Source: Lineus longissimus
Taxonomy: Eukaryota > Nemertea > Pilidiophora > Heteronemertea > Lineidae
Direction: 5' to 3'
NCBI RefSeq assembly: GCF_910592395.1
Contig: NC_088310.1
Span: forward strand, 10,299,501-10,363,500
DNA: 64,000 bases
Shown piece after piece: positions 13,678 to 35,000 of this stretch. Within the stretch, counting starts at the first letter, position 1. Each line of letters opens with the position of its first letter. The translations under genes were made by a program, and so were the position numbers. Under the pieces are notes generated by a model, which ran no database searches, had not been told where the DNA came from, and was given only the letters and a program-made list of their open reading frames with translations.

Positions 13678-14470
13678 CTTTAGCAAGATCATTTATGTAG
13701 ATAAGAAAAAAGAGGGAAGCCAGTATTGACGCTTGCAGAACTCCTGAGTTTATATAACCTTTCTAAGAAACATCCGAGAAGGAATTGTTTACTCGCGCCT
13801 TGATAGTGCGTGCGATCTTTCAAATAATTTTGTAAAATATCCAAAACTCTGCCCCTAATGCCATAGCAAAACATTTTTTTCCCCAGAAGGAAATGGCACC
13901 ATATCAAATGCACCAGAAATATCGAGAAATGTTCCTCTTGTGATGTGTCTAGATTCGTTATTCATTAACAATTTATGAACAATATCAGACAGTTGCTTCT
14001 GTATGTCATGACCAGGAAGGAAACCGGACTGGCGTTCATACAGTAGATTATTAACCTGTAGGTGATGAAGAATGTCTTCATATAAAGCTCGCTCAAATAA
14101 TTTTGAGATGGCATGTAACAGAGTTGCAGGCCTATAATTATCATCACAGTTTTTGAATCCTTTATTCTTATACATTGGGATGACTACATACCAAGTTTCC
14201 AACAGGTAGAAAAATGCCCTGAATCCACAAGTATATTGAATAATATACAGAGGGGTGTATCCAGGGAGGTAGCAACTAATTTGAGCATTTTATCAGACAA
14301 CAATCCATCTTCACCACCTTGTTTGGATACATCTAGATTTAAGATCATTTTCCTGACTCAATCTGGAGTTATCCTAATTAGGTCTATAACAGCTTCAGTC
14401 TGATTATCAATGGCGGGAATCATTGATTCAGCAAAATGATGGTGAAACTTAGAGGCGGACTTAAACAGAA
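13678..14470 (-). pseudogene. non-LTR retrotransposon RT relic
   Basis: Minus-strand translations in more than one frame carry RT blocks in order: LDVSKQGGEDGLLSDKM (RT 1), then NYRPATLLHAISKLFERALY, ERQSGFLPGHDIQKQLSD, RGTFLDISGAFD, then YGIRGRVLDILQNYLKDRTHY and ASILASLFFLIYINDLAK (the altered GVPQGS...YIND block). Frameshifts lie near 13900 and 14200. The catalytic FADD block is missing, because the relic is cut at 13676 by the transposon terminus next to it. Confidence 0.8.
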
Positions 14471-14479
14471 AGTGGTTAC

Positions 14480-15602
14480 TTTTTATTCCTATCACAATCA
14501 GTTACAACATTGGCGATTTGCAGGGTGCAGGGTATCCCATTGTTGTAATTTTTACATAATACCTATGAGGAGCACCCTATAAATGGGCGACTGGCTGATG
14601 CAGATGGACCAGTCATTCAGGAATTACAAGTATCAGGCTGCTGAAAATTTCAGGGAAGACACAATGTTTTCTCTTATACCAATATGAAACGGACATGACT
14701 TCTTGATGTATAAAGTGGCTAACAACAAACCCCTGTCATTGTTGTTCAAGTGTCATGAATAGGAAACTACCCATAGTGTATTTCCTACGAACCACGTCCT
14801 TCTGATCTCATGAAACTGATCCTGCCTGGGGACATTGTTCATGAGATAATTGTCACAATTGACTGCTTATATTTCATGCAGCCTAGTTTTGGGTGACAAC
14901 ATGAACAATTTTGATGCCATAAAACCCCATAATAAAGTCGCCGCTTCGCTTCATGCCTGCCCTGGTCCATTATGTCACCCAAAATATACACCCACCTTTA
15001 AAGAAACAAAAGAGACATTGTACTTGGTCAATGGTTTTATAATTCTGGCTCTCCTTCGGCAAACAAAATGCAAATCCTCATCGTCACTAAACTGATGATC
15101 ATCCACCCAATCGAACCTCGAGAGGTCTTGAAAATAGCCAGCTTGTCTTGGGAGAGGATCAGTGCTGATGCTGTGCGCACTGCTTTTAGAGTTGGAGATA
15201 ACCGTCTGCTCAATTATTGACGACAATGAAGGTCAACAAGTAGAATTTGGACAATTTAGCTGCAATTTAACAGAATGGCAAGGAAGATGATTTACATTTT
15301 TTAAATGAAGAGCCAGATTTTCAAGAATAAACAAAATTGTTCTTTGCTTCATCAGATAAAATGTACCCTTATCCCGGTGAAAGGAATCGCAAGTTGACAT
15401 TGAAATTATGCATCTGCCTTCTCTTCATCTACGTAGCAACATTTCATCCGTCATAAGCATCGTTTGCAACGCACTTCCCACTTCTAAGGGCAGCTTTGAT
15501 TTTGCGTTTGTGAGTGCTGCAGGATTTTTAGGTGAACATGGATAGTCCGCTATACTAACTAAACAGCCCAATATTTTGAAGCTTTGACAACACATGTAAC
15601 AT
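14480..15602. other. non-coding, nothing recognised
   Basis: No supported gene. This is the left flank of the large MULE insertion. Confidence 0.35.
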
Positions 15603-15611
15603 GTTTCAACA
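15603..15611. repeat. 9-bp target-site duplication, left
   Basis: GTTTCAACA lies immediately before the left terminus and is repeated exactly after the right terminus at 30470-30478. Confidence 0.93.
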
Positions 15612-16452
15612 GGGTGTCTATAAACCGAAGACCAAAGACCGAAGACCGAAGATCGAAGATGGAAGACCCCCCCCAAAACTATAAAACGAAGATCCCCCCA
15701 ACTATAAAAGGAAGACCCTGATGTCAACTATAAAACGAAGATCCCCCCAACTATAAAAGGAAGACCCTGATGTCAACTATAAAACGAAGATCCCCCAACT
15801 ATAAAAGGAAGACCCTAATGTCAACTATAAAACGAAGATCCCCCCAACTATAAAAGGAAGACCCTAATGTCAACTATAAAACGAAGATCCCCCCAACTAG
15901 AAAAGGAAGACCCTAATGTCAACTATAAAACGAAGATCCCCCCAACTATAAAAGGAAGACCCTGATGTCAACTATAAAACGAAGATCCCCCCATCTATAA
16001 AAGGAAGACCCTGATGTCAACTATAAAACGAAGATCCCCCCAACTATAAAAGGAATACCCTAATGTCAACTATAAAACGAAGATCCCCCCAACTATAAAA
16101 GGAAGACCCTGATGTCAACTATAAAAGGAAGACCCTGATGTCAACTATAAAACGAAGATCCCCAACTATAAAAGGAAGACCCTAATGTCAACTATAAAAC
16201 GAAGATCCCCCTAACTATAAAACTATAAAACGGTGGACCCTAATGTCAACTATAAAACGAAGATCCCCAACTATAAAAGGAAGACCCTAATGTCAACTAT
16301 AAAACGAAGATCCCCCCAACTATAAAAGGAAGACCCTGATGTCAACTATAAAACGAAGATCCCCCCAACTATAAAAGGAAGACCCTAATGTCAACTATAA
16401 AAGGAAGACCCTGATGGTTTTAGACCCTCAAGTTCAGTTACTGCAGACTTGC
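15612..16452 (+). repeat. left terminal inverted repeat with tandem array
   Basis: The first 60 bp are degenerate ACCGAAG-type repeats. From about 15676 to 16417 about 15 copies of a 49-bp unit follow, each made of two half-units (ACTATAAAACGAAGATCCCC and ACTATAAAAGGAAGACCCT plus GATGTCA). Beyond the array the sequence GTTCAGTTACTGCA still matches the right end, so the inverted repeat extends to about 16452. The same array has only about three units at the right end, so the left array has expanded. Confidence 0.9.
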
Positions 16453-19400
16453 ACGTCATAACACGTGACTGAGCATCTGTATTTCAACAAGCAAGCTAGC
16501 CTGAGTGCGGCGTAGTGACATAGGAGATCAGATCATTCAGGTAAATTCCGGATTTTCCTAACACTGCATTTAGGAGTTGGCGACCGACCTGCCAGTCTCG
16601 ACCCATGATGGTGGAGCCTAACCCCTGGGGACGAGATTCTAAATTACCAAGTCACCCAGAGCAGGGAAACATTGAAACTGATGGGGGGGGGGGGGGGTAG
16701 CTATGGGTCGATGCGCTGCTCGGAGAAAACAAGTGTTCTGGCAATCTGGCAGGGGTTCCGAAGGTCTCCCAAGTCTTGAAAACTTTTTTTTTCTCTTATC
16801 TGTAAATTCCATTATGGAGGTAAATCACTTTTTGTATACATGTACCTCCAGGATTCCATGGAGCCGACACATGTAATTATCACTTGGCTCACTCCAAGGA
16901 ATTGTCAGTTTTTTCAAAACAGAAAACAACTTGTTTGTGTAAAACATGATGATCAAACTTTATTCACTCAACAACAAGAAATCAGCAGTAAAATCATATC
17001 TGAATGATTGAGTACAGAAGTGGAGGCTTCTCATTAATTTTATGCACACATGTATTAAATTTACATTAATGGACTAGTTCTTATAAGTGTATTCGATTGA
17101 TATGATTACCTGTGACTGGAAGAGACCGTACGGAGATCAATTTTTTTCATGAACCAAGATAGTGCTCACCTTGGTACTGGTATTTTTTCATTAGGAAATG
17201 GTCAAACTTGTCAGATGACCATTTGCCATGAGATATCCATCAATTATGCTGGACTTGACAAAAAAAATAGCTGGACTTGATAAAAAATAGACGACTTTTA
17301 CCTCAGCAACCCTGAGAGAGACTAAGCAGTGACCCTGAGAAATACATAAAGATCACGTGAAGATTATTATACTGTTATATATGTTGTCTCATCGCTAGAA
17401 ATACTTAGTAGCCATTAGTCTAAGGTTGCCAAAACAGGAAAAGATGCCGAAATTTCGTCCATGAGTTACTGTCATCCAAGTTCATATCTACAACTTTTGA
17501 AAAACTTGCTACCGGTACACTAATGTTTACCATTACACTTGTTACAGAGAAGCAAATATTTCCTATAGACACGGTAGAATAGAAGCAAACATACTATACA
17601 GACTATACGCGCAGTGCACTTGTACCACATGAATCATACCCCGAAAAAAATGAGATCCATGAAATGTACTACGCATAATTTTTGTAGTTGCAGTAAGAAC
17701 AAGTCAAACAATTAGATGAGAGATATACAATGAGAGATAGACTGAAACCAATGCTGCTGGAACCAGTGAAAAGGCAAACAGCTTTTTGAAAGAGAAACAG
17801 GAATATTATACTAGTACATTTCTGAACCCTCTGAGGCCCATACATGCAAATCAATTTGACAAAAGAATGATTGTCGCATGGCAATACTTGTATGCCAACT
17901 GTGAAATTACATAAAACTTCCTGCAAGTCTTTAACCTTTTACACATTAAGATTTTCAAACCAGTCGTCTAAAGTGCAGTTTGAACCCCCCCCCCCCCCCA
18001 CACGCACGCGCACACACACGCATATCTAATGAACTTGAATTATATTTCCATATAAATTTCAGAGAAACTGGTAGGAATAGGGCTCTGTTTCTTTACTGAA
18101 TCAAAAAGGGCAGAGAATTCAGAGTAAATCATGATTTCACACTATTTTTCCTCCCTTCAGTAGAGCACGTCCCACAACAAATTCAGTGAACCACTACAAT
18201 TATTGATGTCCCTCCCTCAGAAAGTTATCACTTTCTGTGTTTTCACAAGCACAATCCTGCTACCACCATAATGTAACTACGATGGTGAAAGCACACGTTC
18301 ACCGCCATATATGACCTTAAAGTGTGTGCAGTCAAATGCACGTAGATTGTAATTTCCCCTTAATCATGTTAATTAACCTATTGATGGTGTACCTATATCA
18401 ATATGTTTTACAAATAATTATCAGTGACAAAGCCTACACCGCTGAAAAACTCAAACAGCTCTGATTTCAATGTGATTATCAACAGCAGAATATTGTACGG
18501 TAAAATCATTTGTATCAACTTGTATTAACCCCCCCCCCCCCCCCCCGACTACCCTAAATTGGGTTGCTGGGACCAATTTCTATTATGATGAGCATGACAA
18601 GAACAGAAGTCCCTTCTCGTGTACTAAAAGACCATGAACCAGAGGTTTACTACTAATCGATCATTCTTAAGAAACCATCGAATAATGTATTCCCACATTT
18701 CATGTCTCATTATCACTGTGGACATTGACGTGACAAACCTATCCCCATCGTACGCAGGCGGGTTCAATCATGAAATGATCTATTTTGTGACCGACCTGAA
18801 TATAGGGTGAAACAGGAGTAGTTTCATAGATCTTACACTCCTGAATAATTCATTTCATAAAGGAGGGCGAATAATGGTTGAACCCGCTTGCGTACGAAGG
18901 GGAGAGGTTTGTCATGTCCACAGTGATTATGCCTTCATCAGCTGCATGAAGATAGACCAACCAATCGCCACAAAAACATGCCACAATCTTTGTGGCGGGT
19001 AAGAGTAATTGCCTAAGTCCTAGCACACGTTACATGAACAAAAAATAATATATACTGTGGAAACTCAATTAAGCCCGTTCAAGGGCACCAGTCCTGTAGC
19101 AGCCGGGACCTTCACAAAATGCTTCTATTACGTGTAATCAAGTCTATGTTTAACAGACAGAACAAGATCGGCTAAACAGAATCTTCACAGTATGTACACT
19201 TCTACCATTTACCTTTAAGCATAACAATGTTCAGAACTACCGGGTACATCAATTAAGAACACGATTTGAAACAATTCGCCAATTAAACAAGAAATGATGA
19301 TTCCAGCCACAAATTAGAATTCTTTGGAGCTCTTGAAGTTGACTTTAAATCAACTAACAGTTGGCATTATCTACATATAGTTAATACAAATCAACAATGT

Positions 19401-20233
19401 TAACGGGCTTTTAATTAAGCTGTGCAAGGGCCATTTTGCGGTGCAGAAACATAATTGGCGATCCATTATGTCTAAAGGATGAAATCTGAGAAAATGTGAC
19501 TGCAGAGCAGCTTATTTGGGCAACATTTCAAAATATTTATGATGTTCAAGGAACAAAAACACAAGCCATGGCCTTGAGGTAGTGGATTGTGGCAACTCAT
19601 CTAACATTAAACAAGCACTCTGGAAGGACCCTTCTGTCCATTTGGAAAGTAAGAAATATTATCAAATATGCTCAAGTCTATACAACAGGGCGTACTTGTG
19701 TTAAAAATAAGTAAACCCAACTTTGGTGACATATCTGGAAAAATTCCCCAATGCATGTATTAACAAGATAAAGAAAATACAGGGATAGCCTTGGCTGCAG
19801 ATTTTTCAACGATTTTGTGATATTGAGAGACGATGCAGGTTGTGCACTGTATAAAACTAAGGTGTGTGTGTGTGTGGGGGGGGGGGGGGGCGGCAGTGCT
19901 GTAATTTGATTTAACCAGGGAATAATCCAATTCTAAAATATCAAACCATGAAAAATGAAACATTGATATTCAGCCAACTGTGAAAATTGCAGTCATACCC
20001 AATTGATCAATCAGCATTCTCTTGCTTTTCTCTTGCTCAGTTTGTTTTTCCCCCTAATTCAGAGATATTTTTTTAGACACTGCACATCAAAGTTGGATGT
20101 AGCTATTTTTGATACACACCGTACGGTACATCTGTTGTGTTGCCTTCACATCTTTTCTCGGAAAACACAATCTGAGACTACATGTAGTCCGTGACCAGTG
20201 TGGCTTCAGACTTAAGTGTGAAGTCATATATGC
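16453..20233. other. MULE left internal region, non-coding
   Basis: About 3.8 kb between the left terminus and the stop codon of the transposase gene. It contains poly-G and poly-C runs near 16682, 17986, 18531 and 19877, a (GT)n tract near 19861, and a foldback at 18711-18930. No open frame has recognisable protein character. Confidence 0.6.
18711..18930. repeat. foldback / MITE-like inverted repeat
   Basis: Arms of about 60 bp (18711-18770 and 18872-18930) are imperfect reverse complements sharing ATCACTGTGGACAT, GACAAACCT and CGTACGCA.GCGGGTTCAA. The spacer is about 100 bp. Confidence 0.65.
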
Positions 20234-22952
20234 CTAGTGGTACAATTGCGCTGCATTGTAGCCAACTGCTTCCAAGTGCTCCTCATGGAAAGCATCTAGC
20301 TTACGATGCACTTCTGCTGAAATGAACAGATGCTTTGATGCTTGGAAGTATGGAAATCTTGCTATCACACAATTTTGCTCAACACAATAGTACTTTGTGG
20401 TGTAGAGAGCAGATGGCAGCCTGACAGATGGATCACCTGGTTTTGGATAGGACCATCTTTCACGATGAGACAAAACAATGTCATACGGTGATGATGCCAT
20501 TCGATTAAACTCTTGGGAGCACTGTTTGCAGGTCAGTGCCCTTGGTTCATCCTTCAGAAATAAAACAATGAGCGGTAAGTCATTGTGGTGGACACAGTCG
20601 CTGTTGGGCCCAATTTCAGCACATCGATTTTGCCGCCAGGGGTTTCTGTGATGACCTCCTTTTTTGCCAGCAGCGTCTCTCACTTCATTCAGCAAATTTC
20701 CTCGTGATGGTTTAGTCTTGCACTCTGTTTTGACAATGTGATCCAGATGCTGTCTCAACATGTTACTGACGTGAGCTACGCAGAGACTATGCTTACATAC
20801 TTTGTTATATCTATAATTCCCACACTGACATCCCACATAGTTCTTGTACACGGTACACTCAAACATCTTTCGTTTTGTCACATTAGAAGCAACAAGGTAC
20901 TTCCTTCTTGCAGAACATTTTAAGCTTGGCATCTTAGTGAGTGCATCTGGAGTATTCAAAATCTTTTCTGCCTCTACCCTAATGGCCTTCAGTAAAGTGA
21001 TATTCAAAGTGGACATGTTTGCAAGTAGCAATTCTATATCTTCCGAAAGAGTGATTTTCCCAAGTGGAACAGGTACATATGACTTTTTGCACACTTTGAT
21101 CACCTTTTGGTTTTCTACATCATTAACTGTCATCTTATTGAATTGTTCCACGTAATTCTTTCTTTGCGTCTCATCCCAGTCATTGTACCAGAGATTGTGG
21201 TCCATAGCAAGATATTCAGCTTCTGGGGTCAGTTCGTATTCAGCGCTGGACTTAGTTAGAGCTAGTATGACCTCATTACCCTGTTCATCATAGAGGGCTT
21301 CGATTACGTCTCGCACAAGAACCAACTTCGAAACATTTTCCTTCTTCTTCTCTCTCTGAATCACTGTCTCTTTCTTTCTGGCCAGCTTGTTGTTGGTGCT
21401 CTCCGACTGATTGGTATTAGGGCGCTTTGGTATCCCTTCTGACATGAGTGGCATCCCGGCTTTCTTCCTAGCATCCATCAACATATGGTTTGAAATAACT
21501 TTCTGGTTCCTCTTCAGGTACAAAAAAAACTTAGACTGGTAACCATCTGGTTTACTAAGGACCTTTCTTTCTTCTTCATCCATTGCAGCCTTCACAAGAG
21601 TCAGTCGATTGTCCAAAGTCACCGAATTTTCCTCATCAATGAGTCCACCACTACGATAATCTTCTCCAAACACCATTTGGAGGAAACACTTTTGTTCACA
21701 TCTGCTCCTGATACCTAACGAATTTAACTTAAGTACACAGTTGGAGAAGAAGTGCCTGGAGCACCTTAAACCAACTGACCCCGGCAAACTGTTTGCAAGA
21801 GCATTGCTCAGTGCAATTTCTCCATCAGTAACAAATCCTTTTGCATTTTGCTTGAAACCTGGACTCGCACAAGTAACATGTTGTATTATTTTATAGTATG
21901 TCACTGTTTCTTTATTTTCGTGTATGGCAGTTGGTCCAAGAAAGATTGGGTGAACCCCTGTTCGCTTATGTTGAAGAAGAAGGTGGCGATATGTGAAGGG
22001 AGTAACCTCATATTTACCAAAGTTGAAGGTTGGGTCAACAGTTACAGGGTATGAACAAAATCGGCCTAGGTCGATGGATTGTTGGGTTCTCCCAATCACC
22101 CAAATTTCATGGGGTGGTTGACCCGATAACAGTACGTCTTCGTGGCCAACAATGATGCTCTCCTCCTTCAATCTCGCATACTGCAGAAGTTCCTCTGTTT
22201 CATCAACTTTACTGGAACTTGACCTCATCTGGTACACCTGTTGGCGTGATCTAGGCAGCTCACCAGGCTGTCGAGCCACCAGTGGCCCACCATTGGCATT
22301 CATCTGACCATACACATGTGCTGAAGAAGAACCGTTTTGAAGTTTTTCCCTCATTTCCTTTAATATGCTTTGTTGTGTCGGATAGAAGGGCACCCTACCG
22401 TATTTTCTGTTACCGTGTGAAGGAACTTCAAAATTGACCTGTGACACCTTTCAGGGCAATATGGTATTGCAATAAGGACATATTTCTTACAATGCTACCA
22501 TCCTTACGCTCCAGATGAAAAATGGAACGACAGAGACCAGCACTGTTTCTACGAGAATTTATACGCAAATGATATTCATCATCATTGTTCAAGGGAACCT
22601 CTTTTTTGCCTATGACTTCAGCATCATATTGATTATCGTGGTTCCTGATCTGGATTGTCCATACTCCCACTCGGAGTGGATTGTTGTAAGTTCCATTCAT
22701 ATCCGACTTGACATCTCCTTTTTCTTTCAACTTTGTCAAATCAATGAGGAAGGAGTAGTTCCTGTTCACTTTTAACGGGACTTTAGAGCAGGAAGAGTTA
22801 CCAGGAGTCATCAGGATATCGACAACTTCTTGCAGTATGTACCGGTCAGTCTTCCCAACATGAAGAAATGGTATATTCGGGTCGTTTTTATAGAAATGTT
22901 CGGCTGCAGTCAGCGAGGCACTTATGTCGCATACTTCTTCGCCATCTGAATC
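20234..22952 (-). CDS. exon 8: N-terminal domain, DDE MULE transposase and SWIM zinc finger (frameshifted)
   Basis: The exon starts after acceptor GTTTCAG at 22953. The first 170 codons form an unrecognised domain (DSDGEEVCDISASLTAAEHF onward) and then run into a stop near 22428. The next frame takes over at about 22447 and is open for more than 730 codons. The exon is 2,719 nt, one base over a multiple of three. In the second frame (numbering its 737 residues): VTVDPTFNFGKYEV has catalytic Asp138; GFVTDGEIALSNAL has Asp208, followed by LRCSRHFFSNC (Cys229, His232, the conserved MULE C..H); NTNQSESTNNKL has Glu349 as third catalytic residue. A SWIM finger follows (Cys540, Cys542, Cys551, His553 in GCQCGNYRYNKVCKH), then a Cys-rich tail. 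The catalytic residues are intact; only the 1-nt shift spoils the frame. Confidence 0.9.
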
Positions 22953-25900
22953 CTGAAACAATACGAGGGAAATTTTATAGCTGTGTACATCATTCTATTA
23001 TTGGTACCAGTAAGGCATAAAAGAATGTGTGGTTCTGGTAACACAACTGCATGATCCTACATTTTACCCCCAGCGCCAATGTTTGGGCTGTAATTATCAT
23101 TTTTAGTGAATCATCCGTGCATTGAAAGTATGATGAGGATTTTGTTTTACTTGTTAGATTAAGTACTTATATCAAGCTGTACTATGCTACAAATCTCATA
23201 CAACTCAATTTGCTGGTGTATGGAACGATAGTTCATGAAGCGGCTGGCAATACTTACATTGTCTTCAGTGGCCATGTCCTGAAACTTGCAGCTGGAGTCA
23301 CGATACAAATGACCATGTGGCATGTTACTTGCAGGCAAACCTGGAAAAGGAAAACGGATATGCTATGACAAATAGCAAGGTGCCCATCTATCAAGACAGG
23401 TTGTTTGACAGACTTAGAGGAGCAGAAGTGGGGTTGTCACTTATCTCTTGGCTGATGAAGGTGCCATCCTCTAGTGCTTATGACAGAGGTAATCTAATAT
23501 CTGCACAAGGTGGGGAGGCTGGAGGGGGAGGTGAATAATGAAAGTTTGTAGCTCTTATCCAAATCCATCTCTTGTCCTACATTTATTTACCTTCAGAATC
23601 TCTGTAGTCATCACAGCAGTGCTGAGGCCCTCCACTTGCAACGCTGGAAAAGTCTTCAATGCCATCTGAGGCATCGCCATCTGAAAGCAGAACCCATATG
23701 ATAAAAAATTATGCTAGAATTGGGGCACAATATCTAGTAAGGCGATATAAAGGCAGCATGCTGTACTTTGTACAAGCAAACTGTTCTCCTTGTCATCATG
23801 TACTGAGAGAATAACCCAAGCACACCTTTTTGGGGTGGGGCGGATGGATTGACTATAGGTAGTTGAATAGTGATATTTCATTAAGAAACTTCAGAACTCA
23901 ACCCATCCATTACTTGAACGCCAATTCACAGTCTACAGAATGAAGGAAAAACTGTTCCTCTCACCAGGCACAAGTATAATAAGCTTGAGTAAGAAATGTT
24001 TGCAGGAATTTTAATTTCAAATGTATTTTTCTGCGAGTAGCAAAGTTAGAAAGAAAAAATTGGGAACCAAACAAAAACATGTTAATTGAAATTATAGTCT
24101 GCAGAAGCCAAAACGTCACATTAATCACAGTCAGAGTTGTCTCTCATTCCAAAAACCAGGAACTATGTAGCAACAAATATTCCTGGTTTACCATTATCGC
24201 AAACCACTGAGGTCAATGGCAACTTGCCTAAAATTACACCTGATGATTGCACACACAAGGAAGGCTTGTCCTTCTTAGCCCGGTACAGATTGGCAGGGTG
24301 GCTTTTACTCAATCACTAGATTAAAACTAGGGTAGTAAAGGGGTACCATAGCCATCTCATAAAGTCAGATCTTGGCATATTTACCTTCAGCTGAATCTAT
24401 GAAGCCATCAATGCAGTGCTTAGGCCCTCGGCTTGCAAAGCTGGAAAAGTCATCAATGCCATCTGGGGCATCGCCATCTGAAAGTAGAATACGAACTAGA
24501 AATGATCAAAGTGAGGGAGGGATACTTTCCAAGTAGCTTTAAGAGAAATTTAGCCAGGGACTCCCAGCCATTCGATTGGATTCGCCTCCAGAATGAAGTG
24601 CCTCAAGCAGAAAGAGGTGCCTGTCTGGATGCTGATTGGCCGAGCCCAGCCACACCAAGAGGCATTCCCACCATTCCACATTTGATTTGCACGGTTCAGA
24701 AATCAAGACATTTTCTGTTGAAATCCTCATGTGGATTTGAAATAGCAGTGGATGGAAAATGGACTACGAATTTGAATTGAGTGAAATTTCTGGATATATT
24801 GGTCACAAAACAAACTGACTTATCATCAGGGGGAGTATCTTATTTGTCTTTCTATAGCTTTAGGCTGTGAATGGACTGGTTCGAGACTGATGACTAATTA
24901 GTCCAGAGTGCTCTAGAAATATACTTTTTTTCAGCCCTCCTTACCATGACTTGCTCGGTGATCTGCATTGCCTCGCCTCGAACCATTGTTTGCATCAGCA
25001 GAAATGTCACTATGAAGACCTGAAAAGAAAACGCACGGATTTAGTGAAATACAGTTACCTAAATAGATAACACATGCTACCATCACACCCATTTACATCC
25101 ACTGAATTATATGATACAGAGGGCTGGCGAAGGCAGATTTTACCTCATTTGCGAATTTCCTGATTTCTTAGAGTTTGAGTTGGTTTTTTTTTCATACATT
25201 CTAATTCAATTGCTTTAATCAGGCTGCAGCCTCCTTACCATGACTTGCTCGGTGATCAGCATTGCCTCGCCTCGAACCATTGTTTGCATCAGCAGCAATG
25301 TCACTATGAAGGCCTGAAAAGAAAACAAAATAGTAAAATACAGCTACTTTATATACTATATCTTGACCTTTAAGGTTTTTGGTTGAAAACCTTGGCTTTG
25401 GCACCACTGTTTTATGCTTCCTCTGTCACAATTGAATTAAACTGATTAGTAACTATCAAGTGGCTTCACATGCATGACATGTATCCCTCGCTCGACTCAT
25501 TGAAGATACATGTAATCTAGACACTGTAGGACAATGGCCACGTTGGCAAAAGCCCCCTCGACCCTGTAACTTTTGAATGTTCCTTTCATCGAGAGAAAAT
25601 AAATATCTCAAATTTTGTGAATTATTTTGGTGATTAGATAAATGACAAAAGGAGATTTGGTGATGGAAACTTGGTCAAGCGTGTTTAGCAGCTTATGATG
25701 AGGCTTGCACAGAAATTTTAGGAAGTGTCACTGGCTATCTGAGCAGCACTGCTGTATGCATGGCACCCAAAGTTTAAGTGCGCTTTAAAGTTGAATCAAA
25801 CACAAAACAGCAACATCCATGGGATTCTTCAATCATGGGCTATACTCTCCGGCTTTGTTTAAAGGGAGTATCAGACCATGAGGTTCAGATGAGATACTAA

Positions 25901-28900
25901 GTGCAAACACAAAACCTAAATTGAATACATTAGGCCAAAACAAGCCTACCTACCTTTGCAATCCTTTTCAGTCCTACATATCTTCCTTGCTGGCTCATTC
26001 TTGTCATTTTCAATGGGCACTGGTGCTTTGTAGTTGAATCTGAAAATATGAAAGCAGTCCACCTTAAGTGACGCAAGTTTCTTTAAAGCAGAATAAACTG
26101 CAACATTAGGAAATAATTTCCCTTTCCCTTCTGAAACTTTTTAAAATTTTCCCATTTTTTTACCAAAAACCTATATTTTTCATTTCTATGAGTTCCTGCT
26201 GGCTAAACTACAGAAAAGTACACATTTTTCTGTAAGTTAAGAACATGTAGTTTCCAGAATGATATGTTTGGTTAGTAATTACAACTAATTGGCTAATTAG
26301 TAATTGGTAATTAGGCTTAATTGCCCCTCCTTGGGCCCCAGAGCTCTGAGGGGTTGTGGTCATCACCAGACTAACACTAAAACGATACGTGCATTTACAC
26401 TTTACTATAGTATGCTATCCAATGCGCGATCAAAAACACTACAAAACATCCCCTAAATCGCCGTAATTCCCATCAAAATCCGGATTATCACTGGCGTCCC
26501 TGTCGTCTAGCAACTTCCCTAGGGTCAAACCCCTTTATTTTGCTAATTTTTAACCAAAAATCGAGAGAAAAAACACTGAAAATCAGCGGAGATCAAGTAC
26601 GAACTTCGTGACTAGTTGAGCGACCGAAATACCACCACTAAACCGAAACTGACGTCACGAAAACGGGGAATGCCCGAAAGCGCGCAATATTAGGGCCGTT
26701 TAGACGACAGGCGAAAAGACCGCATTCGGATCGAATCTGGATGAATCCGGATTAAAACCACCCAAGGCGATGGTACCTTTTTAGTCCGGATGCAACCACA
26801 TTGATCCGGATCTTTTTGCGTTTACACGACGAAAAATTAATCCGGATTCGGGACGCATCCGGATTTTTTCGCGTCGTCTAAACGGCCCTATTGCGCGGTC
26901 AGCAAGGGAAAGGGTTTTAAGTGTTTTTGTTTTGTATAGCAAAACATTATATCCCTCATTGCTTTGAATGGTCGATTTACAACTTTTACCCTTAATTGAT
27001 AAGTTTTACCCGTTTTCCCCAATGCGGGATAAAGTTCGCCAACTTCGACAAGACATTTAAACGTATTTAGTTTGACAAATCATGGAGGTATTATATTTAT
27101 TAGTAATACCTCCATGGACAAATCAAGGTACACGATCCAAAAGTGTGTTTTCTATAGCGAAGGCCCAATGGTATCACAAATAGGCCATTTAAGTTTCATT
27201 CTTTTCAATATGTGTAAAATATGTCTCCCCTATGCCCTAAGTATAAAATCTTGACTTACCCGTCTATGCGCGATAGGGATTGGCCATGGTTCTTGCCTGC
27301 TTCTCCAACACGATCTACAATCCAACCACACACGTTCCTGACGATTTCTTTGCGTTCCAACATCCCACTCTCTCCGAATACAGCAAGTACACCATTACCA
27401 TCTGCCTGTGGGTGAGTGTCCACCACAAAGAAGCAGTCCCTCCTAAACCCTATTAGAAATGAATACGGGACACACGTGTACACCCAATAACACTCCGAAT
27501 CCGATTGGGTGGAACCAAATAGAAGACCTTTCTCTAACTCCTCAACACCCCTGTCCGAATTGGCAGGACTACCGGATGGTGTTTCTTCGAATATTTCCAA
27601 GGACGGGGGGAGAAGACCAGCCTTTTTCATCACTACCATTGCTTCCAAAGTGTCATACGTACGGTCGTGTTCTCGGATGTCATTGATCACTTCCAAAGTA
27701 ATATTGATGTACTTCACAGCTAATAAAGGTACGTCCTGCCATACAAATTCGGGCCCTTTCTTCTGTACGTCGGAAGCAATCCCCAAAGCTAAGAAGGTAC
27801 AGGCATTTGTACCGTCGTTTGCCGGGGTTGTGCCAAGTGCCACATTTTCTCCACGGGTCAGTGCTGATGCTATGATGCGATCAGGGTTCTCTTGTGGGGT
27901 AGCTTGGCTTACTCCGAGAGACATAAACTCCACGTCGTCAACAATGAAAAAAGCTTGCTTCAATGTTTCAGCGGAGGGCCTTGCATATGGGTCTTGCAAG
28001 GTGAACTGTTTGTATATCCGATACAAATTTGCCAACTTGGTCCTCTGCAAGAATTCGAATTTTGGTGAAGGACGAGGCCGGTGCCCGACCCTCAGCTTTG
28101 AAGCCACAAGGTTCTTGTAGAGGTCTTGACCTCTCATATTTTCCTCTTTAGATTCCAAGCTAAATGGATAGGGCTGGTCGGGATTAATGAGAGTGTACAA
28201 AGTCATCCCCATTGCCCATATATCCATTTTCTTGAGATCTTCCAGTGAGGCATTGGTCCCACGAAGCTCTTCCACTAGAATTTCGGGAGCCATGAATGGC
28301 AGTGACCCCCTCTGTACATTAGTTGTCGCTCCGGCGTTCATCACCGTGTTGGTTTGGACAATGTCTGAACGACTTTCCCCGAAATCAGTTAGCTTACATA
28401 ATAATGGAGAGAACTCGTATGCTTCCATGAATCTTTTACTGGATGGTTCCAGTGAACTGTAGTTCTTGTTGGATATCAATATATTCGCTGGCTTAATGTC
28501 GCGGTGGGCAACGCCTTTACCGTGAAGATACGCGAGGCCACTAATGGCATCACTGCCAACGAGAGTAAACAAATTTAATAATGGATTGATGTCATCCAAA
28601 GAGTCAATCACGCACAACCACTGGGAAAGATTATTTACCGATTTATCAATGCCAAACGGCGCAAAGTCAAAGCATTCATATTCGCTCATAATCGCGAAAG
28701 GCATCTCACACATTGCGATAAACGAAGTTACATTTCGGTGGCTCATATCATTAAGCAGGCGACACTCTTTTAAAAAGTTGCGTTCAACATTGACTGTGTC
28801 GCCGTGAACCTTTTTAACGACGACGGGGTTGTCATATGAAACAGTATTACCCGTACATTTTGCCCGAAACACAGTCCCGTAAGCTCCTTGCCCGATCTCT

Positions 28901-28995
28901 TCTACGACACTCAAATCGGCCCATTTGAATTTCTTGAAAAATGTCTCGCACTTCTGTTTACCTGACACATTCAATTTTGGTAATTTAAAAGCCAT
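20234..28995 (-). CDS. kinase / Cys-protease-like / MULE transposase-SWIM fusion gene, 8 exons
   Basis: The gene model joins 28995-27260, 26039-25954, 25313-25239, 25019-24945, 24477-24385, 23680-23591, 23340-23258 and 22952-20234. Every junction has GT donor and AG acceptor, and the summed lengths keep frame through exon 7 (2,238 nt, 746 codons). The product would be about 1,650 residues: a Ser/Thr kinase, a Cys/His peptidase-like domain, an acidic linker from duplicated exons, a 170-residue unrecognised domain, a DDE MULE transposase and a SWIM zinc finger. The last exon contains one extra base near 22440, so the conceptual frame breaks between the N-terminal domain of exon 8 and the transposase; this may be a mutation or an assembly error. 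The gene lies wholly within the MULE termini and is its only recognisable gene. The transposase is expected to act in the nucleus; the kinase and protease roles are unknown. The splice model is inferred, with no transcript evidence. Confidence 0.85.
23258..23340 (-). CDS. exon 7 of the MULE fusion gene
   Basis: 83 nt, acceptor TTTTCCAG, donor AAT|GTAAGT. Encodes LPASNMPHGHLYRDSSCKFQ then DMATEDN and ends on a codon boundary, so it joins exon 8 (DSDGEEVCDIS) in frame. Confidence 0.7.
23591..23680 (-). CDS. exon 6 (duplicate of exon 5)
   Basis: 90 nt, acceptor CTTTCAG, donor GTAAAT. Peptide DGDASDGIEDFSSVASGGPQ then HCCDDYRDSE. Clearly paralogous to exon 5. Confidence 0.75.
24385..24477 (-). 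CDS. exon 5 (duplicate of exon 6)
   Basis: 93 nt, acceptor CTTTCAG, donor GTAAAT. Acidic peptide DGDAPDGIDDFSSFASRGPK then HCIDGFIDSAE. Related to exon 6 in sequence and phase. Confidence 0.75.
24945..25019 (-). CDS. exon 4 (tandem duplicate of exon 3)
   Basis: 75 nt, same splice phase as exon 3. It encodes GLHSDISADANNGSRRGNAD then HRASHG, one residue different from exon 3. Confidence 0.75.
25239..25313 (-). CDS. exon 3 (tandem duplicate of exon 4)
   Basis: 75 nt, acceptor TTTTCAG, donor GTAAGG. It encodes GLHSDIAADANNGSRRGNAD then HRASHG. Nearly identical to exon 4, including flanking intron bases. Confidence 0.75.
25954..26039 (-). CDS. exon 2 of the MULE fusion gene
   Basis: 86 nt, acceptor ATTTTCAG, donor GTAGGT. 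It encodes FNYKAPVPIENDKNEPARK, then ICRTEKDCK, completing a split glycine codon from exon 1. Linker sequence without a recognised domain. Confidence 0.75.
26691..26890. mobile_element. 200-bp MITE in intron 1 of the MULE gene
   Basis: Ends are inverted repeats TAGGGCCGTTTAGACGAC and its reverse complement GTCGTCTAAACGGCCCTA. The interior is built of CCGGAT-type inverted motifs. It has no coding capacity. It is a small non-autonomous DNA element nested in the intron; the duplication at its edges is short and uncertain. Confidence 0.75.
27260..28995 (-). CDS. exon 1: Ser/Thr protein kinase plus C-terminal Cys/His protease-like domain
   Basis: The start is ATG at 28995; 578 codons run to a strong donor (GACGG|GTAAGT). 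Kinase landmarks are all present: glycine loop EEIGQGAYGTVFRAK (about residues 32-46), VVVKK lysine (about 61), HRDIKPANIL catalytic loop (164-173), DFGES (204-208), GSLPFMAPEIL activation-segment end (230-240) and MDIWAMGMTLYTL. It should therefore be an active kinase. After about residue 355 comes a separate domain with ANDGTNACTFLALGIA (candidate nucleophile Cys399) and, 129 residues later, CFFVVDTHPQADGNGVLAVF (candidate His528, Asp526). That spacing and context resemble papain-fold or deubiquitinase-type peptidases. The kinase call is firm; the protease call is inference from the Cys/His arrangement. It could instead be a non-peptidase fold. Confidence 0.9.
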
Positions 28996-30233
28996 GTTTG
29001 AAAACTGATAAAGGGAATCCTGAAAATCAATGTCAATGAAAACTAGCAGGCAAGTGCCACGTAGACATCGCCTGCACGTGCACGTTTGGATTGTTTTTCT
29101 GTATGTAGGACCAATTCCATATTGGCCGTGTGATCAACTAACCTGCTGGGAGTCTATGACGATACACACACATGCACATAGAAACAGCTTCTGGACGAAG
29201 CTGAGGGCTGGCTATGATGAGTACAGTGAGAAACTAGACGCAAGGGCCCAACGCGCCGCGTAGCGGCAAAAAAGCGAAGCTGGCAAAACATTTATAACGG
29301 GTCACCGTCACTTATTATTGGACTTATAGCGCATTTACGGAGTTGCAACTATTTTGCTTTATAGTGTCACCAGGAAAGAAAAGCATGCGACCTAACGCCG
29401 ATCTATTTGTATAAAGTGATAATTGGAAGGTATATAGTAGGAAATATCAATAAAATAATCATTCTATGTCGTCTTTAGAGGGCATTTTTGATTGTAAAAA
29501 ATATATGTGTACGTCACCGGAGTCTCTGCAATGATAATTTTATCACAGCAGTCTCGCGCAAGTAGAAGTTCTTTACCTATTAGTTCTTCACTTATTAGTC
29601 TCAATGTCTGGCGCAAAGCCAGACGTTTTCCATTACGATTTCACTACGATGTTTGACAAGAAGGAGCAGTGCGCGAGATATGCTAATGAGCAGACTTCCC
29701 TCGCTTGAGTTTCGGAAGAATGTTCCATATCGCGCTAAGCTGACCATTACTGACCATGTCAGACGTGCATTGGACTGGTACAGGTTGGAACTGAACATTG
29801 AATATGCTGGTGGTGACGCTTTCTGATGAGAAGTTGGCCCGTCGTGACTGATGCAGTATCCTTGGACTTGTCCACAGCATCGTTCAATCATTGCTCTCTG
29901 AGCTGCCTTGATTCTGTACTTACCCAAATACTGAGACCAAATGCCTGTTGACTGTGCTTTAAGAGAGACTGGCGCCATGCCTAGTCTCTCTTAAAGCACA
30001 GTCAACAGACACCAACCCCTCAGACTCAGAAACCACAAACGCCCAACCCTTCCTGCTACCTTAATACTTCTGGGTCATATTGGAGCACGGCTGCATGGTA
30101 ACAGGTACGGGGCTCCCCGCCTTATGTAAACTGTGCCACTAAGCTGCTAAGGCTAGACACGACTGGTGTAGTACCCGGTACACTTACTTTCTCAAATCAT
30201 TAATGTAGCATGGACCGAAAATGAAAACAAACT
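28996..30233. other. MULE right internal region upstream of the fusion gene
   Basis: About 1.2 kb between the start codon and the right terminus; it should contain the promoter of the minus-strand gene. No TATA box was placed with confidence close to the ATG. The right terminal repeat itself contains several CTATAAAA motifs reading on the minus strand, that is, toward the gene. Confidence 0.4.
29945..30008. repeat. perfect 26-bp hairpin
   Basis: Arms 29945-29970 and 29983-30008 are exact reverse complements (CTGTTGACTGTGCTTTAAGA at the start of the first). The 12-nt spacer contains GGCGCC. It lies about 460 bp from the right MULE end, upstream of the gene. Confidence 0.9.
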
Positions 30234-30469
30234 GTGCAGTAACTGAACATGAGAATGAAAACCATCAGGGTCTTCCTTTTATAGTTGGGGGGATCTTCGT
30301 TTTATAGTTGACATTAGGGTCTTCCTTTTATAGTTGGGGGATCTTCGTTTTATAGTTGACATCAGGGTCTTCCTTTTATAGTTGGGGGGATCTTCGTTTT
30401 ATAGTTTTGGGGGGTCTTCCATCTTCGATCTTCGGTCTTCGGTCTTTGGTCTTCGGTTTATAGACACCC
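30234..30469 (-). repeat. right terminal inverted repeat
   Basis: Reverse complement of the left terminus: the same 60-bp ACCGAAG-type block, then about three of the 49-bp units, then GGTTTT and GTTCAGTTACTGCA before similarity ends near 30234. Confidence 0.9.
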
Positions 30470-30478
30470 GTTTCAACA
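30470..30478. repeat. 9-bp target-site duplication, right
   Basis: GTTTCAACA, identical to 15603-15611. Confidence 0.93.
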
Positions 30479-31851
30479 TTGCTCGCAAACGCCAGGTAAC
30501 CTCCTGGACTGACATAACTGAGTATCCCGTAAACGCGCAAGTCGGTTAATCGGTCGGATCATCGATGTGTATTGTTGGAGTAAAATGGACATCATCGCTA
30601 TGGACACCTTCGCTGGACTGGAAGAAAATATTTTAAATCAGGCCTGGTTCAGACGGCGAGCTATGTGAGGAACTACTGTATACAAGTCTGTGTTGTATCG
30701 TTATCCGTTAACTGTTAAAGGGCAATTGATATGACCAAAAACAGGTAGTGCTTTTTTGTCAACATTTGGCCTTTTTGACAACATATACTTGTTATACAAA
30801 CTTCCAGAATTATAAAGTCACTACTACATTTTCTTTGAAAACATATTTATCAACATACCAGAGCACATTTCTTTTGAAAATTACAGAAATAATACAATAT
30901 TTTAACGTAGTCTTATCAACGTTAAAAAAGGACAAGCCTCCCGTTTTGTGACCGGAATGAATTTTAGCAGAATTCCACCAAATTTACCACCAGAATGAAA
31001 CGTGAGACATTTAAAAATAACTGGGAATAGATAGCCAGCAGTTGAATCTATATCCTTTATTGCATAACGCGCATTCGACCCATTTTAGGCTAAAATGTTA
31101 TTAGAATGGCGATTGGCGTCTTGGCAGAATCGACCAGAATTCACGACATTGCAAACGTGTCATCAATATTATATTGTATAACAATGGTGCACCTGGTAAG
31201 CCCAAGTGACCGATATTTACACAACTTATAGACATGATAGATGATTGTTTTACTCATCGATAACTCTTTGCCTTTTGTTTTATTATATTTATTATTATAT
31301 TATTATATTTTATGACCTACGTCATGATAAAAACAGCAAATTCAGTTGCATGTACCGACTTCTTTTAAACAGGCTGCAATTCCAGTAATTGCAGAAGTTT
31401 GAAGACAATTTTACAAACATGTGCTCTTGACAGATGCATATTTTTAGTAAACGTGTTGTCAAAAGTCTGTGATAATCCCTTTTAATTGAATGCCCTGTTG
31501 TCAAGACTTATTGATCCGCCCTCGTACTACCACCCTCGTAAGACCGGAAGAAGGAGATCATGGAGTCTGAAAAAAAAGTCGATGGGCGCCCATAAAATAA
31601 GAAAGTGGTGAATTTTAGATTTAATTTACCCCAGCTCATGGTTAGTGCTTAAATTCCAAAGATTAATTCGAATAAGTGATGCGGCGGGGACGGTCGTTTC
31701 TCTGCACTTCCCCTTGATCCATGCACCCTGGAGTTTTATACATAGTGGTAACCCGGGCCACTGACTATGTCTCACAATACATGTACTGTCACACCGGCAG
31801 TATCCGATAACTGGATTCATCAGACTTACAGTCGTTACCGTGTTCTTTTAG
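30479..31851. other. non-coding, upstream of the first recognised PLC-like exon
   Basis: No signal-peptide exon or other coding exon was identified. AT-rich microsatellite-like sequence (TATTATATT) lies near 31280-31310. Confidence 0.35.
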
Positions 31852-32088
31852 CCAACATCTACCAAGAATTTGCCTGTGCAAATGACCTCGGCTATCGTCC
31901 TGGCGACTGTTCAGGAAATGACATTGGCTTTCAAGAGTTGAACCTGCAGGCCTGCAGTGACAAGTGTAAAGCAACCAGCTCCTGCGCGGCCTTCCTGTGG
32001 AATGACGTTGGTCACTGCTACATGAAAAGTAAAAGCTGCTCAACTACAAGCACTGGGAATTCACGGAATCATTTCTTTGATAAGAATC
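31852..32088 (+). CDS. PLC-like gene: PAN-like exon, copy 1 (intact)
   Basis: 237 nt between acceptor TTCTTTTAG and donor C|GTAAGT. Encodes YQEFACANDLGYRPGDCSGN, then the Cys-rich core and CYMKSKSCSTTSTGNSRNHF. The frame is open. Confidence 0.8.
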
Positions 32089-35000
32089 GTAAGTTATGCA
32101 TTGTATCTTTATTACCACTGTGTTTAGCTTTCCATTGAACAGCCGTGCTCGGAAGTTTACATACACGTAAAAATTCTGAATAAAATCTTCAATTCTTACC
32201 AGAACTACTTCATTTAATAAAGCGTGTATGCCATACCTGTTTTCTTGGATGACATGCATTGCATGAAAATATCATGAAAATATCCCGATAACAAATTGTC
32301 ATGAACAAATTTTCCTTTTAAATCCTGCAGTTATCAATATTCAGATAGAAGTAAATCATACTCGATATTGAAATCCATTCTTTGACTTTCTGAAAAAAAT
32401 ATGTCTACTCTGAATTCAAAAATTCAAAGTGTGTCCAATTTCACGGCGACACAGAAGTTTTCTGAACGTGTAGATTCCGCTACCATGACGACGTCAAACG
32501 TGAACACAAATGATCACGAAAGATTGTGCCATTTTAAAGGGCATCAAAAGAAACAAAATCTCATGAAAATCCCAGATGTTTGATATTTTGCGATGTCGAT
32601 CAGAAAGAGCTGGACAGATTTTTTTTCTTCAAATGTTTTACACAGAAAGTCATTCTTAACTTCACAGATTTCTGAGAATAGACCAGAGTACGATTCAGCT
32701 CTACATTTCAAGATTATCAACTGCATTATCTATAGAGTTAGCTATTTTGATATTGTGACATTTTCATAATGTTTTGCGCGCAATGCCAATTTTTGCATGT
32801 TACCATTAAACAGGTTACCAAAGAAAGGTAGTTTTGGTGAGAGATCAACAACTTGTCCACTTTAGTTCATTAATTTTATTTCAATAACCTCGAGTATTCT
32901 GAAATTGAACAATTTACACTATTATATCAAAACGCGTATTTTGTTTATGATGGAAGGTGTATTATACCATGATTAATTATATCGCCATGTTTATTGAAAT
33001 CTAAATGTAGCCTTCAAACACGATTATCTTTCAGAAGTTCACCCAAAGTAATTGTTGTATTTTGAACATGGCATATTCATGCAATTCGCCCCTTGAGAAA
33101 CAAAATATATATCGCAAGTGACATTCGGGAAATCGTTAATCGACTATGAATAAAAACCAATCGCACCGAGCCAATCTCTGGAGCCTTATTATCTTCAAGA
33201 AAAACAGGACGTCACCAAATTTGTTTACCAAACAAAGACATGATAATATTGATAATATTTTCCTAATATTCAACTCCTAATTGGTATCAGTTGCCTCTCT
33301 GCACTTCACCTTGATCCGCCCTGGAGTCTTATTTAATTTTTTTTTTTTTTTTTTTTTTTTTTTATTTATTTATTCGTGTAAAATACATGTACAATATTTG
33401 ATATAACATGACAAGACATTGGATTATGAACAAAATAAAACGTACATGCATTACACTGGTAACCATGTAGGTCGAGACCTATTATATGGCACCAGATAAT
33501 ATGGGTTGTGTCGTCGGGGTGCCGGCGACATGCGCACTAAGTGGGCCGACAGTTTGCACAACGGCAGAAAGTGACGAAAGTGCACATGTCGTCGACATCC
33601 AAACGATCCAACCTGTCAAAATAATAAACATTAAGGGACGATTTAAAATGCATTTTTTTCAAATTATGTAATTGGACCGGGAGGCTGTTCCACAGCTTCG
33701 GTGTCCTCACCCAGTATGAGGCACCGAACGTCTCCGAGTGGAATCTCGGCTGCGCCAGTCGTAAACCGTCGCCCCTTACAGCCGGGGTTATATAAAAACG
33801 TGCATTAAAATCCAGGACATTATAATAAGAATCGTGCATAAAAACTAGATCCTTGATTTCCCGACGGTACGACAGGGGCAGCAGAGACAACGCTCGCAGA
33901 CGCTCCACATATGGCATATCAGGGCCTAAAATGTGACGAGTCACCCTCCGCTGGACACGCTCTAAAGTTTCAAGATCACGTCGCACATGTGTGTCGAATA
34001 CCACCGTACCATATTCAAGGCGACTACGCACAAGTGATTTATACAACATGATATTCAAATTAACGTCTGCAGTACGCCCGCATACACGCCTGATCATACC
34101 CCACATTCTACTTGCACTGCTTGCAATACCATTGACATGAGATGACCATGACAGGTCCGAAGAAAAGACAATACCAAGATCCTTGAATTTATCAACCCGA
34201 CACAATGCAAAACCATTGATATTGTAAAAGAAGTGTGTCGGATTTAACTTCCTAGTAACACTCATGACCATGCATTTGCTTGGGCTAAATGTCATGCCCC
34301 ACCGTTTACTCCAAGCGTACAATTTATCAAGGTCGGTCTGAAGTAGCAGACAGTCGGTTACAGACTCTATCTCCCTACACATTTTGGAATCATCAGCAAA
34401 AAGATCCATGGCAGTACCGTCACTAACGACCTCAGCAATATCATTTACGTACAATAAGAATAAAAGAGGGCCTAAAATTGACCCTTGCGGCACACCAGAC
34501 AGTACATCTAAAAGTGATGACTCCGAGCCATTAATCACAACTCTCTGCTTCCTATTTGTAAGATACGACGTTAACCAACTCAGAAGACGTCCAACCAATT
34601 TAATGATAACCTGGCGACTGACTATGTCTCACAATCCTGCCACACCGGCGCTATAAATTAACTGGATTCAACGGACAGTCGCTACTGTGTACTTTAAGCC
34701 TCCACCTACCAAACGTTTGCCTGTGCAATTGCCTTGGCTATCGTCCTGGCGACTGTCCAGGAAATGACATTGGCTTTCAAGCGTTGAACCTGCAGGCCTG
34801 CAGTGACAAGTGTAAAGCAACCAGCTCCTGCGCGGCCTTCCTGTGGAATGAAGTCGGTCACTGCTACATGAAAAGTAAAAGCTGCTCAACTACAAGCACT
34901 GGGAATTCAAAAAATCATTTCTTTGATAAGCTGGGTAAGTTTTTCATTTTATCAAATTATCAAATTGTGTTAAGTCTAGGCTACCATGGAACAGTCGTGC

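Follow-up and report, generated by a model that had tools for sequence, protein, structure and literature searches.

Cut-and-paste transposases are usually viewed as bare DNA-cutting enzymes under host control. Mutator-like elements (MULEs) capture host genes, some plant MULEs carry ULP-type proteases with the catalytic order His, Asp, Cys, and TBE elements, which belong to Tc1/mariner, produce a TA target duplication. According to the available portion of PMC9741609, viral tegument-like deubiquitinases (VTDs) bear a Cys...Asp-x-His signature and cnidarian VTDs are fused to transposon-associated domains; that portion mentions no kinase, MULE or Mutator. MULEs, VTDs in transposons (PMC9741609) and a kinase-domain open reading frame (ORF) in ciliate TBE elements (available portions of PMC4724952 and PMC12242761) are known separately. 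Here we describe a MULE of the ribbon worm Lineus longissimus (Nemertea), located in a window of 64,000 nucleotides (C3:10299501-10363500; C-names denote contigs of this genome, and other coordinates are window positions), in which a kinase and a VTD-type domain are joined to the transposase gene.

We read this gene, with a probability of roughly 0.6, as belonging to a young MULE family and encoding a kinase, a VTD, a spliced linker and a DDE transposase, the two additional enzymes being active and working in cis. A single minus-strand gene order of kinase, cysteine-protease-like domain, duplicated linker exons and transposase is found, with the following parts (exons 2 to 7 are each based on splice sites and the NCBI model).

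27260-28995, minus strand: exon 1, kinase and VTD-like domain (splice sites, Pfam, NCBI model)
27952-28908, minus strand: protein kinase domain (Pfam PF00069)
27262-27930, minus strand: predicted VTD-type deubiquitinase domain with C399, D526 and H528, codons from 27801, 27420 and 27414 (structure prediction, fold match, conservation)
25954-26039, minus strand: exon 2, linker
25239-25313, minus strand: exon 3, linker, apparently duplicated with exon 4
24945-25019, minus strand: exon 4, linker, apparently duplicated with exon 3
24385-24477, minus strand: exon 5, linker, apparently duplicated with exon 6
23591-23680, minus strand: exon 6, linker, apparently duplicated with exon 5
23258-23340, minus strand: exon 7, linker
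20234-22952, minus strand: exon 8, with the N-terminal domain and the DDE core of the transposase in different frames in the window copy (open frames)
22431-22952, minus strand: transposase N-terminal domain, spliced frame (open frame)
22428-22450, minus strand: overlap of the two open frames, the frame break of the window copy (open frames, comparison with relatives)
20234-22450, minus strand: DDE transposase core and SWIM-like CxC...CxH motif, other frame (open frame, catalytic residues)

All seven introns have GT/AG borders and compatible phases. The predicted NCBI model LOC135484643 (P0002, 686 aa) begins inside the kinase, links the kinase exon by splicing to the N-terminal domain of the transposase, and is identical, letter for letter, to residues 235-920 of our spliced protein; it therefore agrees at all seven junctions. 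By this gene model, as distinct from reads, the kinase and putative deubiquitinase are spliced to the transposase N-terminal domain. The original prediction, made from the sequence alone, of eight exons with canonical splice sites that join a kinase to a transposase is thus upheld by the gene model, and the joining also by predicted whole fusions in other invertebrates (see below). Exons 3 and 4 (75 bp each) and exons 5 and 6 (93 and 90 bp), all of phase 1-1, look like two duplicated pairs.

The kinase matches Pfam Pkinase with an E-value of 1.7e-30 (106.7 bits against a cut-off of 31.7) and contains the catalytic residues of eukaryotic protein kinases, K61, D166 of HRD, D204 of DFG and E238 of APE, in agreement with the motifs first read from exon 1. 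Its best matches are a mixture of EGFR, TrkB, TAK1, CTR1, ULK1/2 and JAK2, and we claim no subgroup. Near-identical copies are too similar for judging selection; compared over 349 codons with a relative at C1:13.37M, the kinase has a nonsynonymous divergence (dN) of 0.149 and a synonymous divergence (dS) of 1.154, and the dN/dS of 0.129 shows purifying selection. We consider the kinase very probably active.

Related kinases were also observed outside this element. Two sets of near-identical multi-kilobase copies carry one (C8:15198328, C13:11072137 and C6:11376266; C15:9332267 and C8:13571861); the stretches fetched contained no transposase, VTD or known inverted repeat, and these sets are possibly other mobile units. 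In the coral Oculina patagonica, the related kinase of P0058 and P0072 is followed by repeats beginning at about 'QWYAGE' rather than by VTD and transposase, so the kinase family occurs in other contexts too.

The protease-like domain has a predicted papain-like fold closest to VTDs by structure prediction and fold match, with the catalytic Cys followed by Asp-x-His (C399, D526, H528). The Cys/His protease-like domain originally proposed is accordingly present, and its description is amended to a VTD-type deubiquitinase fold. The Herpes_teg_N profile matches with an E-value of 0.19, below cut-off, in one of 28 rows. We consider the domain probably a deubiquitinase. A ULP (C48) protease was considered and rejected, as Cys399 precedes D526 and H528, against the order His, Asp, Cys of that family; ULP/SENP chains were not among the fold matches listed, which is no evidence against ULP/SENP.

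The transposase core contains D/D/E residues at 22036, 21826 and 21403 in an RNase H-like fold nearest ISCth4, as in MULEs. Pfam MULE (PF10551) scores 23.3 bits against a curated cut-off of 27.6 in the window, and is found at E <= 0.1 in 19 of 27 relatives (best 7.7e-05). One frame had been expected to run from the kinase through to this core, and here the original prediction fails: exon 8 opens in the spliced frame, which terminates at 22428, before the catalytic core, and the DDE core lies in another frame (22450-20234). LOC135484643 ends at the same place. Two relatives, P0108 (907 aa) and L035 (the C1:11.2M copy, an 896-aa open frame), read the break point in one frame. Decay is evident in the copies at C14 and C1:14.2M, which are nearly identical: stop codons interrupt both, and C1:14.2M has its own frame change upstream of the window break point. 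Because relatives read through in one frame, the window copy appears broken between N-terminal domain and core; a lesion or an assembly error would account for this, a programmed frameshift less probably.

Alignment of near-identical copies on C11, C13, C8 and C4 fixed the exact ends of the element. It is larger than the reported span of 20234-28995: the whole element occupies 15612-30469.

15612-30469, minus strand (gene strand): complete Mutator-like element, 14,858 bp (copy comparison, exact ends)
15603-15611, no strand: target-site duplication GTTTCAACA, one side (flank comparison)
30470-30478, no strand: target-site duplication GTTTCAACA, other side (flank comparison)
30263-30469, minus strand: outer part of the left terminal inverted repeat, containing subrepeats of 7 and 49 bp (97% identity to the right end over 210 columns)
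15612-16412, plus strand: right terminal inverted repeat, containing an array of the 49-bp subrepeat (copy comparison, subrepeats, match to the left end)
29238-30069, no strand: 832-bp insertion in the 5' part of the element (missing from the four near-identical copies)

Both termini begin GGGTGTCTATAAACCGAAGACC and are flanked by GTTTCAACA, and subrepeats of 7 and 49 bp occur in the arms. The 9-bp target duplication is exact in all five copies, within the MULE range of 8-11, and long terminal inverted repeats, here 97% identical over 210 columns, are likewise a MULE character. No clear target duplication or inverted ends were seen for the 832-bp insertion. The other four near-identical copies are internal-deletion derivatives, all of which have lost the transposase; the kinase domain is complete in three and reduced to its first 52 residues in the fourth. 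A genome search with the left arm, in which 40 of 148 first-look candidates were scored, so that all its counts are lower bounds, gave at least 41 near-full-length matches of 98-100% identity on at least 16 contigs, grouped into at least 32 loci, of which nine are pairs separated by 0.9-3.3 kb. When the window transposase served as query, with 61 of 68 candidates scored, its own copy was recovered at 100% and the next match at 45%, making the window copy the sole transposase-bearing member of its family found in the assembly. This mobile family looks young, with many short copies and one found with a transposase.

Some more distant elements in the same genome also have a kinase beside the transposase. 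The five best transposase matches are the window itself, C1:14.20M, C1:11.20M, C14:10.29M and C17:1.56M, the last four at 42-45% identity, and further related transposases occur elsewhere at 24-32%. In four of the five, the window included, a kinase is encoded on the same strand no more than about 8 kb upstream; these represent three families, not four, because C1:14.20M and C14 are near-identical (both begin with the related terminus GGGTGTATACAAAACCAAGACC). The original prediction had named element copies lacking the kinase exon as the finding that would count against it. The four deletion copies do not show this, having retained kinase sequence and lost the transposase. One related transposase copy, C17, has no kinase in the 8 kb examined.

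The same domain order, which had been suggested as a check in other invertebrates, was recovered there. In a search with the transposase part of P0136, 15 of 40 matches had a protein kinase Pfam domain on the same predicted protein, among them P0149 (1512 aa, on a 5,123-bp contig), P0150 (1484 aa) and P0145 of Holothuria leucospilota (1555 aa, named TAO1, with a SWIM domain too). All 15 have the order kinase, VTD, transposase region, with some defects: the kinase of P0146 is incomplete, P0151 and P0158 are truncated, the kinase is repeated in P0158, and P0160 has no DDE core. Searching with the window transposase, restricted to about 1290 aa with longer proteins excluded, gave one fused protein among 30 matches and separate predictions for the other 29. 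As a side observation, the ends of six predicted proteins (P0136, P0138-P0140, P0143 and P0144) nearly coincide after the DDE core, which suggests a common intron before a SWIM-coding exon.

Catalytic residues are conserved in these proteins. In an alignment of 93 rows (the window, 77 kinase matches and the 15 fused proteins), the fused set retains the HRD Asp in 15/15, the beta-3 Lys and the DFG Asp each in 14/14 ungapped rows, the protease Cys in 15/15 and Asp-x-His in 14/14 ungapped rows. Across all rows, the HRD Asp position holds 91 Asp, one Gly and one gap, and the protease Cys position 55 Cys, 33 gaps and five other residues. Trees were built from 15 rows (13 fused proteins, the window and C14, with P0158 and P0160 dropped); kinase and transposase trees have 10 of 12 splits in common, compared with at most 4 in 2000 label shuffles. 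By this tree comparison, kinase and transposase share a history.

Hydrophobic-acidic motifs resembling SUMO-interacting motifs were also seen between VTD and transposase in the linkers of P0138-P0140, P0142 and P0146. They occur in 5 of 14 linkers (one duplicate row dropped), a count reached by 14 of 2000 shuffles, and in 1 of 15 when the linkers are begun later, reached by 1300 of 2000; first spotted by eye, and with several linker rows being close relatives, these motifs are only a lead.

We propose that both the kinase and the VTD are catalytically active and act in cis. By removing ubiquitin from the transposase, or from host partners next to it, the deubiquitinase would spare the complex from the proteasome; by phosphorylating the transposase, or host factors close by, the kinase would set the time and place of transposition. 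Deletion copies that keep the kinase end may yield truncated products acting in trans. The roles suggested with the original prediction, in regulating transposition, countering host defence or modifying chromatin, are speculative. We give even odds that stabilisation or regulation of transposition in cis is the main role. For the wider group, we lean slightly towards an old, widespread animal MULE clade with a one-chain, three-enzyme transposase, able to phosphorylate and de-ubiquitinate, that would govern its own stability and timing in cis, in opposition to the host. With the same slight leaning, it would be the cut-and-paste counterpart of Helitrons that carry a deubiquitinase, and the first case of a kinase and a transposase sharing one chain.

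Several observations weigh against this explanation. The window copy does not have the whole fusion in one frame, the fused relatives are mostly gene predictions only, and 25 of the 40 matches to P0136 had no kinase Pfam domain. The VTD was undetected by profile in the C14, C1:14.20M and C1:11.20M elements, all of which have kinase and transposase, and is either dispensable there or missed. VTD and transposase trees have only 5 of 11 splits in common. Against the C1:13.37M relative, VTD dN/dS is 0.61 (107 codons) with a dS of only 0.24; since kinase dS is 1.15 but VTD dS 0.24 against the window, this decayed copy (L020, C1:13366001-13376000) is, by these divergences, probably a chimera of two element lineages.

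The kinase and VTD could alternatively form a trans-acting effector on host silencing, repair or ubiquitin signalling, fused to the transposase for co-expression or nuclear delivery, which we regard as unlikely yet deserving of serious attention. Both are potentially multi-turnover enzymes, the whole kinase domain persists without a transposase in three of the four deletion copies, and tegument VTDs act on host signalling (available portion of PMC9741609). Long co-inheritance with one transposase clade fits a cis role at least equally, however, and the kinase may persist in deletion copies merely by its nearness to one end. A processing role for the VTD-like domain, as a protease that would cut a fused polyprotein into kinase and transposase, is improbable. 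VTDs probably descended from proteases that were not deubiquitinases (same portion of PMC9741609), and a long, variable linker follows the domain; but no common cleavage motif was seen by eye in the linkers, deubiquitinases are the best fold match, and the VTD is undetected in some elements with kinase plus transposase.

Passive cargo, captured in the Pack-MULE style and functionless for the element, is a very unlikely account of the kinase and VTD: host-gene capture by MULEs is familiar (abstract of PMC8277862), but the retained catalytic residues of the fused set, the kinase dN/dS of 0.129, the splits common to kinase and transposase trees and the same part order in proteins from several sources all speak against it. 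We attach an equally low probability to a programmed +1 frameshift in exon 8 that would meter transposase production. The spliced-frame stop codon follows a Phe codon that lies in a short run of T, which resembles the surroundings of known +1 shift sites; L035 and P0108 are nevertheless one-framed at the break point, and in C1:14.2M, the sole other Lineus copy whose frame changes nearby, the change falls at a different place and stop codons are present. Least credible is that kinase/VTD and transposase are separate neighbouring genes of one element joined only by gene prediction, since the early stop of the window's spliced frame and the many separate transposase predictions (25/40 without a kinase; 29/30) are set against an NCBI model that splices into the transposase exon, a P0149 contig that leaves less than 0.6 kb for introns, and the possibility that separate predictions are large exons called alone; element ends, fused relatives and common tree splits disfavour chance neighbours or separate genes as well.

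A viral origin was considered and rejected: a scan of viral contigs gave 72 loci at 20-32% identity, save two short matches (45 and 76%), nearly all covering the kinase range only, with one range extending to residue 399. No structured RNAs reached the gathering threshold within 15000-31000. Reverse-transcriptase ORFs (RVT_1) at 8897-10186 (plus strand), 33540-34628 (minus strand) and 13858-14289 (minus strand) near the transposon are presumably retroelement remnants. Beside the element lies a duplicated pair of similar ORFs, 31755-32138 and 34625-35044 (both plus strand), with weak PAN-domain matches below cut-off.

A transposase with a kinase and a deubiquitinase on board would mean that some transposons bring post-translational control of their own, and the struggle of selfish DNA with the ubiquitin and phosphorylation pathways of its host would become directly testable. 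VTD deubiquitinases, mainly known from Helitrons and herpesviruses, would extend to Mutator-like elements. Marine-invertebrate gene models named ULK1-like, TAO1 or CDK2 homolog may in part be transposon genes.

Compared with known systems, the Lineus element resembles MULE/MuDR elements in its long inverted repeats, 9-bp target duplication and DDE core with a SWIM-like motif, and differs in the N-terminal kinase and VTD on the transposase protein, a combination not found in the literature searched. Among the titles and abstracts listed from the open-licence literature, none concerned a kinase-transposase or kinase-VTD transposon fusion (subscription papers, preprints and Repbase entries lay outside the search). 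Like plant ULP-MULEs it is a MULE that carries a cysteine protease belonging to a ubiquitin-like pathway; unlike them, it has the order Cys, Asp-x-His and a kinase, which plant ULP-MULEs are not known to have. With Helitron and herpesvirus tegument VTDs it shares a papain-like fold with Cys and Asp-x-His, and Helitron VTDs are transposon-borne (available portion of PMC9741609), but the predicted Lineus VTD lies between the kinase and transposase of a cut-and-paste DDE element. A Helitron with a VTD was rejected, the DDE core and 9-bp duplication being present; no Rep/helicase Pfam domain was found among the element ORFs of at least 120 aa scanned (four of five). Oxytricha TBE elements similarly encode a kinase-domain protein besides a DDE transposase; they are Tc1/mariner elements that encode the kinase in an ORF of its own (57 kDa, with zinc fingers), and the available portions of PMC4724952 and PMC12242761 make no mention of a VTD. 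Identity with TBE was rejected, as the duplication is 9 bp rather than TA and the gene model joins the kinase by splicing to the N-terminal domain of the transposase. The Lineus element is still a MULE, with an enzymatic N-terminal part that was not found in the open-licence literature searched.

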